IMG/VR virus record: IMGVR_UViG_3300007512_002205
Span: 57,144 to 121,143 of that record
Source: a virus
Direction: 5' to 3' (one strand)
DNA length: 64,000 bases
Made by a program: the position numbers and the translations under genes. The notes under the pieces are model-generated. The model did no database searches. It had not been told where the DNA came from and worked only from the letters and a program-made list of their open reading frames with translations. Positions 53,454-61,978 of the stretch are shown one piece after another (position 1 is the first letter of the stretch; each line of letters begins with the position of its first letter).

Positions 53454-54395
53454 TTAGCCAGTTAGGGTCTTATAAATCTTGCTGAAGATCAAATTCTCTT
53501 GGATTTGACCTCCAAGGCGATCTGCCTTTTGTTTAATTTGGTCATAGGCTGCCGATTCAGGTTCTGGAATGTTAGGCTGCATTTCCTGATCGAACTGATC
53601 AAAATACAATTTCAGGTTGGCAACCAAATAATCGGCAAACTCTTCCTTATCCTGAACGTTTGAAAGCATCGCATATGAGTCACCAAGCTGCTTTTGAATT
53701 TTTGGGAAGGTTCTTTGAGCCATCTCCATTCCTGTGCGATCAAGTCCTTGAATCTGAACGAATTCACTATCTTTCCCAGCGGCAGCCTTGGCTGGTTTCA
53801 CTTTTTCCTGATGGGCTTGAGCTGCTTTATCATCGATTGGGATGAATTTTTCATCACTTTTCCCACCAACAGGTTTGCCAGGGGGCTGATCTTCCACATC
53901 AACTTCCAAATCGGCTTCTTGAAGTTGTTCCGGCTCTTCCATAGCTGGCTCTTCCATGGCCGGTTCTTCTACAGCAAGTTCCCCTGCACTTCCACCTTCT
54001 TCTGGTCCGAGTGTCGGCATCTCAGGTTTTTCAGGAGGCTCTTGACCTTCTGTTTCCTTGGAAGATGTCGTAATGTCGACTCTCATAAGAGTGTTAATCG
54101 CGTTTTGAATGACGTGGGATCTAAATGATGTCTTTTGCTCTTCATTTGTCGTCAAAAGTTCATAAGATTGCTTAATGATCGGAATGATTTGTTTAAGAGT
54201 GTTGGCTAAAACGTTAATACCTGTTGATCTTGTAGGAATATTGGCACTAACATCGGTGTCTTCCTTAAGAAGATTAACCTTTCTTCTTATTGCGTTTTCC
54301 AACCTTAATTGTTGTCCTCTTTCTTGACTTCTTTTGACGATTGATTCGAGAATTCTTGCTCTTATCGCCTTTTTTATGATTTTTTCGTTTGTCAT
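53454..54395 (-). CDS. Hypothetical Glu/Pro-rich protein, 313 aa
   Basis: Starts MTNEKIIKKAIRARILESIV with a GAGAG site eight bases before ATG. It has a low-complexity middle (residues about 115-175) rich in Glu and Pro, including the repeat AMEEPAMEEPE, and a helical C-terminus ending ENLIFSKIYKTLTG. The first 122 bases are shared in another frame with the end of the nucleotidyltransferase gene, whose own end is very basic. Function unknown. Confidence 0.7.
   Translation of the reverse strand: MTNEKIIKKAIRARILESIVKRSQERGQQLRLENAIRRKVNLLKEDTDVSANIPTRSTGINVLANTLKQIIPIIKQSYELLTTNEEQKTSFRSHVIQNAINTLMRVDITTSSKETEGQEPPEKPEMPTLGPEEGGSAGELAVEEPAMEEPAMEEPEQLQEADLEVDVEDQPPGKPVGGKSDEKFIPIDDKAAQAHQEKVKPAKAAAGKDSEFVQIQGLDRTGMEMAQRTFPKIQKQLGDSYAMLSNVQDKEEFADYLVANLKLYFDQFDQEMQPNIPEPESAAYDQIKQKADRLGGQIQENLIFSKIYKTLTG
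53930..53974. repeat. Three 15-bp tandem units encoding Glu/Pro repeats
   Basis: Three imperfect 15-base units (ccggctcttccatag, ctggctcttccatgg, ccggttcttctacag) encode the repeated (AM)EEP stretch of the gene at 53454-54395. This is a typical slippage-prone tract. Confidence 0.85.
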
Positions 54396-56589
54396 TGCTT
54401 TCTCTCACTCCAAGTCCGTGTGTTGTGGCAACAGCGTTTCCAATGGTCTGTTCGCTATTATAATTAGTATCTCTCATGTCTTTAGTGATTGGCTCCGCTG
54501 AATACTGATCATATTCGAAATCCTCTTCCAGATTTTCCTCATCTTCATCTAAGTTTTCCCAAGGGCCTTTGGTTGCGGCCCCTTGAACAGCCCCTGCTGA
54601 TGCTGCTGACATCTCTTCCAGTTCTTTTTGCTCTCTTAGGATAAGAAGGTCAAGGAAATTGGTAAGTTTTTTATCCGAAGTAGATTCCGAAGGGGGCCTT
54701 TTCGCTTTTTTTTTATCTTCAAGCTCTTCTTTTATCATTTTATACCCAAAAAGTATACGCATGACGTTCTTTATGTCCTTCATTGACTTCTTTGGGATGT
54801 AATGAACCATTTCTTGCTTATCACCCCTTGCAATGGCTGAACGAAGCTCTGTTCCTGACAAGGGAGTGGCGTTGCCGCGATAGGTTATAGGCTTTGCGAC
54901 CTCTCCAACATCAACATTGACACCTGCTGGTGTATTGATTTGCAAGTTCTTAAAGCGGTGTCTGTCTTTACCAGAAACACCCAAGACGAGCGAATCGCCC
55001 GATTGAGCTTGATTTTTAACATATTCATAGGTATCAGCGACTGGTCCTTTAGGAGAAGACTTCACAATAGACACTTTTTGACGAATATTTTCGTTTGCAA
55101 GATACATTCCAAAGAGCTTTTGTGACAATTCATAGCTTACATGTCCTAAAACCTGCTTTGTTTTGGGGTGTTTGATCTCACGAGGCTTTCTACTGATGAT
55201 TAGCATGACCTTTTCAACGTTATCAAGGGAAAGGTAGTGCTTTATCATCTCAATATGCCCTCGATGTGGTGGTTTAAAGGAACCTGGGATGATAGCGAGT
55301 CTTCCTTGTATCTTTTTTAGCTCAACATCGAACTCACCCTTCTCAAACTGGTCATCTGTGTCCTTATATTTGTAATATCCAAGGATCTGGTTGACAGGGG
55401 CAAAGTTGCCTGTTAGTTTGTATATGTGACCATCATATGGGAATACAATGCCTTCAATGTTCAAAGAAAGCTTGTCAATGTCCCCGATCTTGTCGAAATG
55501 GCCTTGAAGCCTGCCCTGTTCTTCCCGATCTTGCAAATTTGACGAAATATTGGTCAAACGCGCCCTTAATCCATCATTAAACTTGTCTGGTTCGGTAAAT
55601 ATAGCACTATTCAAGAGGTTTAGCAAATCAACAGAGAAGTTGTGCAATAGTATCTCCATAGGATACATGGTTTTTTTAAACATTTCTTTGGGTTTTTCAC
55701 TCTCAAGGAAGGTTCGAACCTGTTGCGCTTTGTCAATATCAAGGAATTTAAGGACTTCTTTCATCTTTGGAGCCTTAATAAGCTGTCCATGGTTGGCATC
55801 TGCAATGATTTTCTTGATTAAATTGACGTGATTTTCGGCTGAAAGGGTGAAAATAAGGGCTATTTCGGGGTCTAAAGAGGCTATCATATACTCTAAAATG
55901 GTCGTTTTTGGGCCTAAATCGTACTTTTTTTGCAGGTTTTGAAGCCTTCTGAGGAAAGAATCAAGCAAATTTTTCGTTTTTTGGTGCTCAAAACGCATTT
56001 TTTCGTTGATTTTGAACTGTAAAGTGGGTTTAAACCCCTCGTTTGCAAGAATTAAGGCGAAAAACTGCTCAATTTGAGGCTCATCCATGAAAAATTCGAC
56101 TCTTTGGGTGAAATCATTGATTTTTCGATGCCCTGTACGGTGAAAAACCATGTATTTGCCGTTATATTCAAGCAAATTGGGTGTTTTTGGGTTAATTATG
56201 TCACAATTATAGAAAATTGTCGGCTCTCCCTTCTTATTTTGCCCAAAAAGCTTGATTTGTTGCTTAATTGACAGTGTTTGGGCGAACTGACCGAAGTTTT
56301 TGATGGCTTCTGTGATACAATTGACCACATTTTCGTTAAATTTGCTTCGATTTAGGAAATATTTCCTCATTTGGTCGGCAGTTAGGCCAAATTGTCGCAT
56401 TTGAGCGCCATTTCTGACCGCTCTGGCCTCTCCATCGCGCGTTGAGTACGATAATAGGAGGTTTATGCCATCAAATTTCTCTGTAAACTGTATTTCACCA
56501 TAGCAAAGCTTGGTAAACATCTCTTGAAGCTCTGAGAACTTGAGATAAGGGTTCTCATAGATGTGCATTATGTGTTTCTTTAGGCTCAT
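54274..56589 (-). CDS. Bifunctional protein: ligase-like adenylyltransferase fused to HxGH nucleotidyltransferase
   Basis: 771 residues. Residues 38-41 (KFDG, after YGEIQFTE) followed by a RNG at 59-61 and, later, NIEGIVFPYDGHIYKLTG (379-394) correspond to motifs I, the SRNG box, IV and V of covalent nucleotidyl transferases (DNA/RNA ligases, capping enzymes). Residues 431-590 contain AIIPGSFKPPHRGHIEMIK (HRGH at 442-445), IISRKPREIKH and NATPLSGTELRSAI (578-583), which match HxGH and SxTxxR motifs of NMNAT/cytidylyltransferase enzymes. The end is low-complexity and very basic. No Shine-Dalgarno is clear. It may adenylylate or cytidylylate RNA ends, NAD precursors or a protein. Confidence 0.82.
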   Translation of the reverse strand: MSLKKHIMHIYENPYLKFSELQEMFTKLCYGEIQFTEKFDGINLLLSYSTRDGEARAVRNGAQMRQFGLTADQMRKYFLNRSKFNENVVNCITEAIKNFGQFAQTLSIKQQIKLFGQNKKGEPTIFYNCDIINPKTPNLLEYNGKYMVFHRTGHRKINDFTQRVEFFMDEPQIEQFFALILANEGFKPTLQFKINEKMRFEHQKTKNLLDSFLRRLQNLQKKYDLGPKTTILEYMIASLDPEIALIFTLSAENHVNLIKKIIADANHGQLIKAPKMKEVLKFLDIDKAQQVRTFLESEKPKEMFKKTMYPMEILLHNFSVDLLNLLNSAIFTEPDKFNDGLRARLTNISSNLQDREEQGRLQGHFDKIGDIDKLSLNIEGIVFPYDGHIYKLTGNFAPVNQILGYYKYKDTDDQFEKGEFDVELKKIQGRLAIIPGSFKPPHRGHIEMIKHYLSLDNVEKVMLIISRKPREIKHPKTKQVLGHVSYELSQKLFGMYLANENIRQKVSIVKSSPKGPVADTYEYVKNQAQSGDSLVLGVSGKDRHRFKNLQINTPAGVNVDVGEVAKPITYRGNATPLSGTELRSAIARGDKQEMVHYIPKKSMKDIKNVMRILFGYKMIKEELEDKKKAKRPPSESTSDKKLTNFLDLLILREQKELEEMSAASAGAVQGAATKGPWENLDEDEENLEEDFEYDQYSAEPITKDMRDTNYNSEQTIGNAVATTHGLGVRESNDKRKNHKKGDKSKNSRINRQKKSRKRTTIKVGKRNKKKG

Positions 56590-57061: not shown

Positions 57062-58762
57062 TCACCTTTTTGTGATGTTTTCCATCAAAACTTTGTTAAG
57101 TCTACTGTATCTTTCATATAATGGTAAATGATACTTGTAATTTTCTTTAACCTGCTGCATGGCCTGCTGCTGAGTGGGTTGTTGGGCACCACTAATTTCT
57201 TGTGCCAAAGCAACGAACACATCTTTATCAGCTTCGCCTGTTGTAATCATATTACGGGATTGTTGATAGGCTTTTAAAGCTCTTTTTGTTTGAATATCAA
57301 AATCCCCATTCACTTTGGTGTCAAAACCAAGTTTTTTCAAGGCCATTTGCACAAGTTTGACTCTTTTTCCTTTACAACCCAGTTGAACAAACGTTTCGGT
57401 GCAATGTACAGCCATTTCATCATCGTCCCACTTGACAGGACCCCCGGCAGCGCCACCGCCACCGCCTGTTCCGCTACTTCCACCTCCAGCTTCTTGTGAA
57501 AGACTCTTTTTCCACCAATCCTGAAAGCTTTGGTCAAGATTGTTAAAGAATCCTTTCTTTTCAAGCTGATAAGTTTCCCGTGAAACGAGAACCAACCTTG
57601 ATAACCCACGTTTACCAACAAGATTTGCAACACCACCAGAACCAAAAAACTTTTTGCCCGTTTTGGCTTCAATTTTTTTCCCGAGGGCCACAAGTTCCTT
57701 GTACTGATCGTCGGTAAGCTTTAACATTTTCTCTTTTCTTTTGACAAGCTTCACCATCTTGTCTTTAGCGGCACCCATTTTTCTTAAAACTTGATTTATT
57801 TTCTGAACATGGTTGCCATTCTTTGCGAGCACCTCCGCAACTTTGAGTTGTCTTTCATCAAGCGCCTTTTGAAGATTCTTGAGCATTAAAACATCTTTTG
57901 GATCGGTTGATTTTGACAACTTCGCCATACGATACTGGGTCTTCGCAAGTTCTTGTTCGAAATCAGCCAGTTTAGCGGCTCCTGATTCTAGTTTCTTGAG
58001 TTTGGTCGCCAAAGGAGCGATTACCTCTTTTTCAAAACTCTTTATCTTTTTGGCGTGCGCGACTGCTTTGGTTGCCGCCTCTGCAACATCTTCTGGTATC
58101 TTTTGAACCCTCTTGCCTACAATGGCGGCATAAGGGTTTCTAAAGAAGTCGTTTAAAGCGGCCATGGCTTTATCTTTCATGCCTTTGGGGGCTTTAGGGA
58201 GCCCCTCCATCTTAGAAAAAATTTCTTCAACACTTTTTATTGTATTTGGTTTTGACCAAACGTCTTTGGCTGTTTCAAAAATGGCCTTTGATACCATGCG
58301 GTTCTTCATCGCTTTAAAAAGAGCCGCAAATCCAATGCCAGCAACTGGTATAAGCGAAAGTGCTGAAAGTCCGCATTCAAGCCACTTCTCTCTACCCGCA
58401 TACCAAACTACATTTATTCCATCAGCAACAGCACCAAAACCTGGGAACATACCGGCAATACCCAACCCCCACTGAATAGGATCTTCCCAGGTCCAGTCAT
58501 CGCCTCTTGCTTCGTATTCTTCGTATTCTGCTTCTGTTGCCTTTCTGTCTTTTGCCGAAGATTGATCCAACAACAGTTTGACATATGCGACAGCGTTAGG
58601 GGAAGCGGACTGAGGACCGTATTTTTCATAACCAGCGACAAAGATTTCAAGTTCGACCCGATTCATCGGCTTTCCCCTAAAAGCTTTTAATGCAACCTTA
58701 CGATATCTTGAATCTGCTTCGACAGTAGCCTCAGTTATGATGTGTGGCCAATCAAAGTTCAT
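57062..58762 (-). CDS. Virion-type protein with pre-toxin-like segment and peptidoglycan-binding domain
   Basis: 566 residues. Residues about 94-145 (WGLGIAGMFPGFGAVADGIN and CGLSALSLIPVAGIGFAALF) resemble the short hydrophobic 'pre-toxin' segment of polymorphic toxins and could insert into or cross a membrane. Residues about 180-420 are Lys-rich helices and likely coiled coils. A Gly-rich linker precedes a PG_binding_1 domain near residues 455-530 (VKLVQMALKKLGFDTKVNGD, TKRALKAYQQSRN). A protein that binds the wall and carries such a segment could be a tail or ejected protein. There is no toxin domain that I can see. Confidence 0.72.
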   Translation of the reverse strand: MNFDWPHIITEATVEADSRYRKVALKAFRGKPMNRVELEIFVAGYEKYGPQSASPNAVAYVKLLLDQSSAKDRKATEAEYEEYEARGDDWTWEDPIQWGLGIAGMFPGFGAVADGINVVWYAGREKWLECGLSALSLIPVAGIGFAALFKAMKNRMVSKAIFETAKDVWSKPNTIKSVEEIFSKMEGLPKAPKGMKDKAMAALNDFFRNPYAAIVGKRVQKIPEDVAEAATKAVAHAKKIKSFEKEVIAPLATKLKKLESGAAKLADFEQELAKTQYRMAKLSKSTDPKDVLMLKNLQKALDERQLKVAEVLAKNGNHVQKINQVLRKMGAAKDKMVKLVKRKEKMLKLTDDQYKELVALGKKIEAKTGKKFFGSGGVANLVGKRGLSRLVLVSRETYQLEKKGFFNNLDQSFQDWWKKSLSQEAGGGSSGTGGGGGAAGGPVKWDDDEMAVHCTETFVQLGCKGKRVKLVQMALKKLGFDTKVNGDFDIQTKRALKAYQQSRNMITTGEADKDVFVALAQEISGAQQPTQQQAMQQVKENYKYHLPLYERYSRLNKVLMENITKR

Positions 58763-61464
58763 TTATTTTGCAACCTTCTCAGTCTTTTTTGGAAATCTCT
58801 TGTGGCATTTTTACCGCTCATCTTCTTCTGCCAATCCTTTTGCTTTTGAGCTTTATCAGGGGCGACTTTCTGAGTGGGTTTTTTCTTTTGTGCTTGCTGG
58901 TTCACAAAGCTTTGAGCATCTGTTTTATCTTGCTTGTGTTTTTTCCACATATCCGGCTCTTTCTTTCCCGCAGTATCAGGGGACGCTTTTTTGGGGCTCT
59001 CATATGCAGAATCATCACCTCCAACCGCAACATTCTCAGCTCCTGGGCCGCCTCGTGCGCCTCTTTGCTGCTGAAGCCAAGTCACAAAACCAGAGATGCT
59101 TCTCTTCCTTGGAGGCGGATTTTTAAGCTTGGCGGCCTTTCTTCTGATTAAGTTAATGGCTTTCGCTGTATTTCCGCCATAGATTCCATCAAATTCTTTT
59201 TCGGGTGGCAAAGAACCATCTGGGTTCATAGGGTTCTTCAAATGGTTTCTTTTCAACCAAATGTTTGCTTCTTGTTGGAGAATCTGAACATGAGGGCTTG
59301 GCTTTCGCTTCTTCTTTGAAGAAGGACTTCTTCTTTTTGCTGTATCTGGAGAAGCAGAGGCAAACTGTCCCTGTAATTTTGCAATTCTTTTGTCAACATC
59401 CCCTGCATACTTTGAAGAGGGGTCCATTTTCTTATATTGCTTGAATAATGTGATTGCTCGTTCTTCATCTCCTTTTTCTTCATAGGCCCGTCCAGCATTA
59501 CGAAGATACACTGGTTTATTGTTGTCTAGATCATAAGCATTTTGAAAAAATTCAGCGGCTTTGTCAAAATTTTTCTTGACGAAAAATTCGTGACCTTTAT
59601 TGGCAAGCTTTTTTGCTTTAGAAAACTTTGGGTCTTCTGCATAAACACCAAACGATTCATCTTCAGAAGAAGGGCTTTGTTCCACAACGTTTTTGAATTG
59701 TCTAACTGTGTTTTCCATATCCGCACTCATCGCCCCTTTCTCAAGACGACTAATATAACCTTTAAATGGTCTTAAAGCAGTTTCTTTTTCTTTTTCTGTC
59801 CAAGAGCCTTCTTTGCGAAGTTTATTTAGGGCTTTAAGTGCGAGCCACATTTCATTAGAATTGTCTTTTTTAATGGCGAAGTCGAAAGTTGATTGAATAT
59901 TCCTCATTAAATTAGAAATAGAGGCGCTTCCCAAAGCCTCATTGACAGTGGTCTTGCAACCAACTGGAGGTTTCTCATCTTCTTTCCGATCTGGAACTTT
60001 GGGATTTGTATACGGGTTCTTTTTCTTTTTCTTTTTTTTTGGAGGTTTTTCTTCCTCGTTTACCGACTCTTTTGGAATATACTTATCCGCTTTCTTTTTA
60101 AGGTGTTTTACAGCAGGGGGTGTCTTTTTGCCTTTGCTGCCCTTGGGAGCCTTTTGTTTGGTTGCCCATTTTCGATATTTATCAAACTTTTTGTTTGAGT
60201 CTTCGAGATCTTTTGTGATGTCAGATTCGCCATCATCACCGCTATCAGATGTGGTTATTTCTGTTGGGGGCTCATTTCTTTGAAAGGATTCAACTATTTT
60301 TTTTTTCACAGGAACGTCTGTCAAGACCTTTTGGGCAAAGTTGTACTTCGAAAAACGCTCTTTGAGGATTTCTGTTCCGCGCTTTTTGGACTCTTCCAAA
60401 CGATCGGGATCAGGAAGCTCTTCTCTTCCAAGATCTGGACCTCTATACGGTCTTGCGGAATCACCACCGCCCGTGAGATCAGGGGTTTTAACAGGTCGTT
60501 CTTGTCGACCACCCATATTCGCCAAACCCTTTAACCTGCCTGTCATATCCCCACCAGGACTTCCAACATCAGGTTCGCCAGCAATTGGTGGGGGTGGGGG
60601 CTGACTTTCCGCACCAGCAACAGACTGTTCATGACCGGGAATACCGGCTTTATTCAGAGCAATAAAGGTTCCGGCATCAGGCTTACCTGTCGCTGGCAAA
60701 CCCTGAGATGACTGATACGAAGCCAAGGCTTTGCTTGTTTTTGGACCCATTCTTCCATCAATTCGACCGGGATCAAAACCTGCCGCCTTGAGTTTTGTTT
60801 GAAGTTCAACAACAGAAGGATCTCTTCGTGAACCTCTTCGCGAAGGCTTTCTTGCTAAAATAGGCGCAGGCTCATCTCTGCCTTTGTAGTCTTTTTCTAT
60901 TGACCGAGGACTTGCAGAAACATCTGTTGTTCCAAGATCCTGCTCGTCTGTCCAAGACTCTGGATCATAAAAAGCCTCTTTGAGTTCTCTTCGAAGTTCC
61001 TGTTCGATTAACTTCTTCAAGTATTTCTTAGCTTCGTTTTTTTTACCATTTTTCATTTTTAATGTGTCCTCGTAGTCTCGTAAAAGTAGATTCCCTTCAA
61101 GATAGGCTTCCTTTTCCATTTCTCTTAGCGCACCGTCCTCAAGAGCGTATCCAACTTCTGTAGAGAATTCATCATCAAATTCCCCTCTACAGTTTTGTGT
61201 GTGATGGACAAGTTCATGTGACAATGACCTAAGAACATCTTTCGGGTGTCTCCCGCTAGTATAAATAGTTATAACTTTCTCATTTGGCTCATACTGTGCG
61301 GTTTTTCCAAAAAGCTCTTTAGCATTCTCCTGATCGGAAACGAAAGAGACTTCAACCGGCTCTGTGAACCCTAATGTTTCTTGTGCATATGGAAAGAATT
61401 TATCAAAGTTGTCCTTATGAACATCGTAATATCGTTCTTCGCTTTCATCTTTAACAGAGATCAT
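58759..61464 (-). CDS. Multidomain protein: zincin, peptidoglycan-binding and TPR
   Basis: 901 residues from an ATG at 61464 that follows the previous stop; the long frame reaches 61503. Near the start, RSLSHELVHHTQNCRGEFDD gives HELVH at 83-87 with an EKEAYLEGN that may supply the third ligand, so a metallopeptidase domain of about 130 residues. A PG_binding_1 domain follows (DPSVVELQTKLKAAGFDPGR, IDGRMGPKTSKALASYQ). Then come a Pro/Gly-rich linker, a TPR-like pair (KNFDKAAEFFQNAYDLDNNK, AGRAYEEKGDEERAITLFK) and a second wall-binding-like segment (EFDGIYGGNTAKAINLIRRK). Likely a large virion or lysis-related protein. Confidence 0.78.
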   Translation of the reverse strand: MISVKDESEERYYDVHKDNFDKFFPYAQETLGFTEPVEVSFVSDQENAKELFGKTAQYEPNEKVITIYTSGRHPKDVLRSLSHELVHHTQNCRGEFDDEFSTEVGYALEDGALREMEKEAYLEGNLLLRDYEDTLKMKNGKKNEAKKYLKKLIEQELRRELKEAFYDPESWTDEQDLGTTDVSASPRSIEKDYKGRDEPAPILARKPSRRGSRRDPSVVELQTKLKAAGFDPGRIDGRMGPKTSKALASYQSSQGLPATGKPDAGTFIALNKAGIPGHEQSVAGAESQPPPPPIAGEPDVGSPGGDMTGRLKGLANMGGRQERPVKTPDLTGGGDSARPYRGPDLGREELPDPDRLEESKKRGTEILKERFSKYNFAQKVLTDVPVKKKIVESFQRNEPPTEITTSDSGDDGESDITKDLEDSNKKFDKYRKWATKQKAPKGSKGKKTPPAVKHLKKKADKYIPKESVNEEEKPPKKKKKKKNPYTNPKVPDRKEDEKPPVGCKTTVNEALGSASISNLMRNIQSTFDFAIKKDNSNEMWLALKALNKLRKEGSWTEKEKETALRPFKGYISRLEKGAMSADMENTVRQFKNVVEQSPSSEDESFGVYAEDPKFSKAKKLANKGHEFFVKKNFDKAAEFFQNAYDLDNNKPVYLRNAGRAYEEKGDEERAITLFKQYKKMDPSSKYAGDVDKRIAKLQGQFASASPDTAKRRSPSSKKKRKPSPHVQILQQEANIWLKRNHLKNPMNPDGSLPPEKEFDGIYGGNTAKAINLIRRKAAKLKNPPPRKRSISGFVTWLQQQRGARGGPGAENVAVGGDDSAYESPKKASPDTAGKKEPDMWKKHKQDKTDAQSFVNQQAQKKKPTQKVAPDKAQKQKDWQKKMSGKNATRDFQKRLRRLQNK

Positions 61465-61465
61465 A

Positions 61466-61978
61466 TTATTGCTTAACCTTTGCCCGCTTCTGAATCTTGT
61501 CAAGCTCTATTATCACCAGCCCACGACCGATGTTGCCAGGATATTTGACAAGTAAAGCAGCGATTTTCTTTACTTTTTCTGGCGTCAATGCTCTCAAAGC
61601 CCATGGCTCTAAAATATTCTTTGCTTTGTTTTTCACATATTGTATGTGTTTTTCTGAAACGGCTGGGCTGGTGTCCGGTGAGGCTTTAGGGGTTTTAAGA
61701 TTTTTATTTATCAATTGCTTAAGTTTTCTACGGACACCATCAATGCCGACCGAGCCTTTCTTCTCAAAGTACTTGTAAATTGTTAAGGTTTTGTTGTCAA
61801 AGACCCCCGTGACCTTGACAGGTGCTGGTTTTTGACGTGATTGAAACCAAAGGATGATCGCTTTTTGAAGAGCCATTATTTGCCTCTTTGAAGCATTAGG
61901 GGGCTCTTCCGTTTGTTGTTGAAGGGTCGTGTCCAATTCGTTAAGAAGGCCGATTATTGTTTTGGTTATATTTCTCAT
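61466..61978 (-). CDS. Protein with diverged peptidoglycan-binding-like domain, 170 aa
   Basis: Starts MRNITKTIIGLLNELDTTLQ. LQKAIILWFQSRQKPAPVKV followed by TGVFDNKTLTIYKYF has the LQxxL...GxFDxxT rhythm of PG_binding_1 domains, in degenerate form. The rest is basic and helical and ends in KIQKRAKVKQ. It is followed at once by the multidomain zincin gene. Wall binding is inferred only from the pattern. Confidence 0.6.
   Translation of the reverse strand: MRNITKTIIGLLNELDTTLQQQTEEPPNASKRQIMALQKAIILWFQSRQKPAPVKVTGVFDNKTLTIYKYFEKKGSVGIDGVRRKLKQLINKNLKTPKASPDTSPAVSEKHIQYVKNKAKNILEPWALRALTPEKVKKIAALLVKYPGNIGRGLVIIELDKIQKRAKVKQ

Follow-up and report, generated by a model that had tools for sequence, protein, structure and literature searches.

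A conserved phage protein pairing an RNA-ligase-superfamily domain with an HxGH adenylyltransferase domain

What might a phage protein do that carries the motifs of two nucleotidyl-transferring enzymes in a single chain? The question was raised by an open reading frame (ORF) at positions 54274–56589 on the minus strand of a 64-kb stretch of viral DNA, referred to here as the window, which forms the end of the 121,143-base IMG/VR virus record IMGVR_UViG_3300007512_002205. Genes for a T4-type portal, a terminase, RecA, a DnaB-type helicase and an ATP-dependent DNA ligase on this record mark the virus as a T4-like tailed phage. The search for tRNA genes was negative for the window and for three further stretches (L181–L183). 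The ORF encodes a real, conserved and virus-restricted two-enzyme protein, combining a domain of the RNA-ligase superfamily with an HxGH adenylyltransferase domain in a polyvalent-like setting. Computed directly were the fold and motifs of both halves, the restriction to viruses within the scanned collections, the pairing in both domain orders and the location in the head gene cluster; the two folds and their pairing are well supported. A preliminary description of the sequence had named the motifs K38FDG, R59NG, E379GIVFPY, Y390KLTG, G436SFKPPHRGH and S578GTELR, and all were present as placed. The features of the protein are as follows (aa, amino acids; pLDDT, predicted local distance difference test).

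54274–56589, minus strand: whole ORF, 771 aa, ATG start, intact; ligase-like domain, HxGH domain and low-complexity acidic/basic C-terminal tail
55363–56589, minus strand: Rnl1-like covalent nucleotidyltransferase domain (aa 1–409); AlphaFold2 pLDDT 89.4, Foldseek match to T4 Rnl1, hhalign match to Rnl1
56467–56481, minus strand: motif I, E37-K38-F-D40-G41, predicted AMP-lysine K38; K, D and G invariant in 23/23 relatives
56407–56415, minus strand: R59-N60-G61 box; R59 and N60 in 23/23
56164–56211, minus strand: motif III/IIIa, YNCD130IINP134KTPN138LLEY142; E/D-x3-P-x7-Y spacing as in T4 Rnl1 E159-P163-Y171
55480–55992, minus strand: mainly helical insertion of about 170 aa (aa 200–370) between motifs IIIa and IV, from the secondary structure of the models
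55435–55455, minus strand: motif IV, E379-G-I-V-F-P-Y; E379, G380, V382 and F383 in 23/23
55408–55422, minus strand: motif V, Y390-K391-L-T-G; Y390, K391, T393 and G394 in 23/23
54745–55302, minus strand: NMNAT/PPAT-type HxGH nucleotidyltransferase domain (aa 430–615); phrog_395 E=1e-6, Foldseek match to NadM, NCBIfam
55255–55284, minus strand: HxGH motif, G436SFKPPHRGH445, from sequence and alignment
54841–54858, minus strand: SxTxxR motif, S578GTELR583, from sequence

Relatives and fold of the ligase-like half

Sequence-only searches with aa 1–409 against Pfam, PHROGs, NCBIfam and PDB returned nothing meaningful, and none of the RNA-ligase models of Pfam, PHROGs and NCBIfam matched the window protein. 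Tblastn searches of phage genomes retrieved three relatives at 23–27% identity, one from Microcystis phage Mel-JY01 and the others from two huge uncultured phages; T4-type Rnl1 was not found by tblastn from the window protein. The alignment of these three sequences with the window protein served as the first query; in IMG/VR viral contigs it yielded at least 565 sequences related to the ligase-like half, of which 80 were kept. Another 80 loci came from a second query based on window-type relatives. Scanning of 84,980 bacterial and archaeal genomes detected a single partial match, located in a metagenome-assembled genome, and the family is therefore virus-restricted at that sensitivity. The plasmid scan gave no match to the family.

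In 23 relatives, clustered at 85% identity, the residues K38, D40, G41, R59, N60, E379, G380, V382, F383, Y390, K391, T393 and G394 were identical throughout. The motif III acid was glutamate in 22 of the 23 and is aspartate (D130) in the window protein. A 38-row alignment showed K38, D40, G41, R59, E379, G380, K391, G436, F438 and P440 as invariant and N60 as nearly so. This conservation is beyond chance. Motif I (KxDG) and motifs III, IV and V occur in the order of the ligase/capping superfamily, on a nucleotidyltransferase fold in the AlphaFold2 model. In this superfamily the motif I lysine is the site of adenylylation, so that Lys38 is predicted to be adenylylated.

AlphaFold2 modelling of aa 1–640 from 38 sequences gave a pLDDT of 86.7 with both halves as confident domains. 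Because the HxGH half dominated the fold search with this model, a separate model of the ligase-like half was needed (aa 1–415, 35 sequences), which reached a pLDDT of 89.4 and a predicted template modelling score of 0.86. Its first five Foldseek matches in PDB were T4 Rnl1 with three entries, a Palaeococcus RNA ligase and T4 Rnl2, headed by T4 Rnl1 with E=0.012 and prob 0.75. Fungal tRNA ligase Trl1, a Naegleria RNA ligase and a viral DNA ligase followed further down amid unrelated weak matches. The preliminary description had proposed that a domain of the ligase/capping superfamily is joined to an HxGH nucleotidyltransferase, and had tied this fusion to a ligase-like fold of the N-terminal half and to a conserved Lys38; the motifs and the lysine in 23/23 relatives, the two AlphaFold2 domains and the RNA ligases as nearest PDB folds bore it out on all counts.

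Profile comparison by hhalign pointed in the same direction. Similarity to Rnl1 (score 40.5) exceeded that to the other ligases compared, Rnl2 (31.6) and T4 DNA ligase (17.7). The comparison with eight Rnl1 sequences gave P=1.8e-4, extended over motifs I–IIIa only and placed motifs I and III in register; as controls, 60 column-shuffled alignments scored 19.9 at most and the reversed alignment scored 14.9. Rnl2 gave P=0.0028, its score barely over its own shuffle maximum of 31.3, and T4 DNA ligase, represented by a single sequence, gave P=0.22 out of register. As a yardstick, Rnl1 against Rnl2 reached P=0.052, weaker than the window family against Rnl1. The spacing of motif III/IIIa was equal in both proteins, E159-x3-P163-x7-Y171 in T4 Rnl1 and D130-x3-P134-x7-Y142 in the window protein. 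Since fold, profile and motif III spacing agree, the ligase half is probably a distant relative of Rnl1 that works like it, with about 170 additional residues forming a helical insertion.

Two other ligase identities were rejected. The virus encodes its own ATP-dependent DNA ligase (L181:5653-6744, PF01068 9.5e-22), which makes it unlikely that the window protein is its replicative DNA ligase. A LigA-type NAD ligase was dismissed as the Ia domain is missing and LigA was not among the fold matches.

The HxGH half and the constancy of the pair

The motifs G436SFKPPHRGH and S578GTELR are both canonical and lie in an HxGH-type fold, as in the NMNAT enzymes NadM, NadD and NadR. The top Foldseek matches of the whole model were NadM-type adenylyltransferases of nicotinamide mononucleotide (NMN; 2r5w, E=1.8e-5), together with archaeal NMNAT 1m8j (TMt 0.64), and the domain matched phrog_395 with E=1e-6. 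The NCBIfam models for coaD (PPAT) and NMNAT gave E-values between 2e-5 and 3e-5, with scores that came nowhere near the respective cut-offs; the NMNAT model NF002243 scored 23.7 bits against a cut-off of 127, so that the curated NMNAT score was not reached. Because NMNAT and PPAT models both score so low, several substrates remain candidates, among them NMN, nicotinic acid mononucleotide (NaMN) and phosphopantetheine, with NMN most likely on the modelled fold. Of the roles raised in the preliminary description, which were work on RNA ends, synthesis of nicotinamide adenine dinucleotide (NAD) and protein modification, fold and profile would narrow the choice to an Rnl1-like RNA ligase with an NMNAT-like domain. 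An unusual active-site variant, GRFQPFGPHH with SGTxxR kept, was observed in marine relatives with the HxGH domain first, for example L040:5196-9209.

Pairing of the two domains was nearly constant. Among 99 complete ORFs with the ligase domain, a tally that includes near-identical contigs and does not count independent events, 92 were fused (54 ligase-first and 38 HxGH-first) and seven were unfused. Five of these seven had a match to the HxGH model in a nearby gene, L130 had a weaker partial one and L121 had none. Both orders and the split form also occurred in distant phages, with Mel-JY01 being HxGH-first and LR756500 being split into adjacent genes. Constant pairing in both orders therefore suggests a joint role. 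The literature search, limited in scope and thus no proof of absence, found no report on this exact fusion.

HxGH-first marine relatives were 1,300–2,463 aa long. The largest, a marine phage protein of 2,463 aa (L027:1818-9209), comprised an AAA_33/zeta-type P-loop kinase, a CCA-adding enzyme (PolyA_pol 5.5e-31 and PolyA_pol_RNAbd) and an HD domain, followed by the HxGH and ligase-like pair. Judged by its predicted domains, it appears close to a complete tRNA-repair set in a single chain. Phage RNA repair is known to involve polynucleotide kinases, CCA-adding enzymes and HD-like phosphatases (PMC7824862), and the modules therefore support RNA repair, though not as a general feature: in a set of 36 relatives, CTP_transf_like was found in 30, the kinase in 12, and CCA and HD in one.

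Further observations concern the relatives and other HxGH proteins. In 62 of 80 distinct sequences, the ligase-like domain, which starts with GHxxH, is preceded by the pattern [LIVM]xE[GA]; where the domain is N-terminal, it starts directly with MGG in some cases. In the N-terminal parts of the polyproteins, [LI]xE[GAS] was seen 47 times compared with 22 expected by shuffling, a comparison among related proteins that does not give a probability. Such sites resemble prohead-protease cleavage sites and may mark processing. Another HxGH-centred multi-enzyme protein, of 907 aa, was found in Flavobacterium phage immuto (L006:5119-7842); its HxGH domain is combined with a Pol-beta-like GS...DLD motif and a HEXXH metallopeptidase-like stretch.

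At the C-terminus, the window protein overlaps another reading frame:

54274–54396, minus strand: basic tail (aa 732–771), overlapping the next ORF in another frame; probably outside the conserved protein
53454–54395, minus strand: next ORF, 313 aa

In L008, L009, L010 and L025, a single ORF of 1,060–1,105 aa runs beyond the HxGH domain, and its terminal region in L008 resembles the downstream window ORF. For the window pair this leaves two arrangements, separate genes that overlap or a junction through a +1 shift; a frameshift, either programmed or erroneous, or the splitting of a gene may be the cause. The tail itself is probably not conserved and probably lies in a different frame from the conserved fusion.

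Gene neighbourhood and cyanophage versions

In most marine relatives the gene lies upstream of the terminase, portal and prohead-protease genes, and it is thus encoded among virion genes, as are polyvalent or injected proteins. HEXXH metallopeptidase genes were located upstream of the ligase gene in 28 loci of window-type relatives. Polyvalent proteins are enzymes carried in virions and multi-enzyme polypeptides encoded near virion genes (PMC5512222); head-cluster position and HEXXH neighbours match this theme. The preliminary description had seen a nucleic-acid link in the SAP-domain gene just upstream. That gene gave a sub-threshold Rho_N/SAP match and was not among the genes conserved beside the relatives, and the link was abandoned for lack of conservation at their loci. 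Two further neighbours were recorded. A Zn-ribbon-like gene directly follows the ligase gene in 99 loci, for example L003:13184-13822 (about 186 aa, CxxC, no assigned function), with kin in 109 other loci. In the window ORF at 58759–61503 (914 aa), TPR repeats and a peptidoglycan-binding domain accompany a HEXXH metallopeptidase-like stretch; the HEXXH genes upstream of the ligase gene in the 28 related loci are similar to it.

A search of the viral fold library BFVD with the ligase model extended the comparison to cyanophages, with a match to a Synechococcus phage S-PM2 protein at E=3.5e-5. This 591-aa protein has KWDG, QGD, EGFV and KIV motifs followed by an HxGH-type domain, and its ligase-like part corresponds to PHROG 455, listed as of unknown function. 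Relatives of the S-PM2 fusion were present in 549 phage records; at least 80% of its length was covered in 201, mostly cyanophages and usually as two adjacent genes, such as PHM1_161/162 in P-HM1 and 141/140 in S-SZBM1. The cyanophage versions lie close to mazG, 2-oxoglutarate oxygenase, primase and recombinase genes and not capsid genes.

Cytidylyltransferase/NMNAT-like proteins have been detected in virions of S-SZBM1 (protein 140, 2 peptides; PMC9146016), S-SCSM1 (ORF91, by mass spectrometry; PMC9602691) and S-CREM2 (ORF154, 3 peptides; PMC10665884), and PMC10665884 cites S-CBWM1 for a further one. On the other side of HxGH gene 140, directly after it, lies S-SZBM1_139 (L192:988-2361), which has no assigned function and is listed in the virion table (PMC9146016).

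Weighing the readings and comparison with known systems

The reading to which we give about an even chance is a late, probably virion-carried effector of two enzymes, an Rnl1-like RNA ligase and an adenylyltransferase that makes NAD+. ATP would adenylylate Lys38 of the Rnl1-like half, the AMP would pass to a 5'-phosphate RNA end, and this end would be sealed to a 3'-OH; the most likely targets would be tRNAs of host or phage that have been cleaved by RNases of the host. The NMNAT-like half would join the AMP of ATP to NMN or NaMN, yielding NAD+ and offsetting NAD+ loss. As the gene lies in the head cluster, we infer late expression, and the protein would probably be carried in the capsid and act early after injection. 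Several points weigh against this. Activity is known for no family member, and RNA as the acceptor, not DNA or protein, is suggested by similarity and context. The Foldseek E-values of the ligase half in PDB are weak, with none below 0.001. GSFKPPHRGH is as like PPAT as NadM, and most marine HxGH-first relatives carry GxHH (GRFQPFGPHH) in place of HxGH. The full RNA-repair set is not general, with the kinase in one third of one sample and CCA and HD in one protein, and the kinase could alternatively be of NadR type (nicotinamide riboside kinase). NadV, tRNA or other NAD genes were not noticed in the genome parts examined, where no dedicated search for NAD families was made. For the virion proteins, the authors of PMC9602691 and PMC10665884 allowed for co-purification, and the ligase-like neighbour SZBM1_141 is absent from the S-SZBM1 virion table (PMC9146016).

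Much of the same evidence bears on other explanations. A polyvalent effector as described by Iyer et al. (2017), with unrelated targets for the two domains and shared packaging as the sole reason for their fusion, is unlikely: the giant modular relatives with varying extra domains and the HEXXH genes in 28 loci fit the concept (PMC5512222), but the ligase/HxGH pair stays constant while the other modules vary, which argues for a joint role. Quite unlikely is a ligase-like domain that adenylylates a protein or small molecule, or that takes AMP from NAD+ with the HxGH half remaking NAD+ from the released NMN in a self-recycling manner. The near-obligate pairing with an NMNAT-like domain speaks for it, as does L005, where motif I has a weak match to LigA (E=0.055), but the 37 residues preceding K38 leave no room for a LigA-type Ia domain, and the nearest folds are RNA ligases and not LigA. 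About equally unlikely is a role in head or tail morphogenesis with secondary enzyme activities, after T4 Rnl1 (gp63), which is annotated both as RNA ligase and as catalyst of tail-fibre attachment. The head-cluster position in most relatives would suit it, but invariant ligase residues and largely kept HxGH residues are not required of a scaffold, the cyanophage genes lie away from capsid genes, and the extra modules of the giant relatives are enzymes.

A single shared substrate is also conceivable, with little probability: the HxGH half would join a nucleotide, or NMN/NAD, to 5'-phosphate RNA, giving an AppRNA-like or NAD-capped-like end that the ligase-like domain uses or seals. If true, this would be an injected RNA-capping-and-joining machine of undescribed kind. 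A catalytically dead structural remnant is very improbable; D130 in place of E and the GxHH variant of marine relatives could suggest one, but across 23 divergent relatives there is no variation at the K, D and G of motif I, the R and N of the RN box, the E of motif IV or the K of motif V. Should the effector reading hold, with the ligase half active and delivered with the DNA, a kit for RNA repair and NAD support would be present before phage gene expression. The pair occurs in hundreds of phage sequences, common ocean phages included, with its ligase-like half lacking a functional annotation, and may bear on the recurrent NMNAT-like proteins of cyanophage virion proteomes that have no clear role. 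S-PM2, P-HM1 and S-SZBM1 offer culturable test systems.

Among known systems, polyvalent proteins (PMC5512222) share multi-enzyme chains near virion genes and HEXXH metallopeptidase neighbours; the ligase/HxGH pair is not described in the consulted passages of that paper, and the window protein has only two enzyme domains. NadM and archaeal NMNAT, the top Foldseek matches, share the HxGH and SxTxxR motifs and the nucleotidyltransferase fold, whereas the window domain has no Nudix match and scores well under the curated NMNAT cut-offs, and marine relatives differ by GxHH at the active site. In cyanophages, PHROG 455 (T4-GC 71) and the cytidyltransferase of PHROG 395/3041 (T4-GC 190) present KxDG, QxD, EGFV and K, then HxGH, like the window protein, fused in S-PM2 and adjacent in P-HM1, S-SSM5, S-B64 and S-SZBM1. 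Because the profile similarity of the two ligase-like families is weak (hhalign P=0.013), the case for their homology is made mainly by the fold, the order of the motifs and the pairing of the genes. T4 Rnl1 (gp63) is the best match of the ligase half in both PDB fold and profile, sharing motif I KxDG, the E-x3-P-x7-Y spacing, the EG of motif IV and the K of motif V; the window protein differs by its mainly helical 170-aa insertion before motif IV and by its fusion to an HxGH domain.

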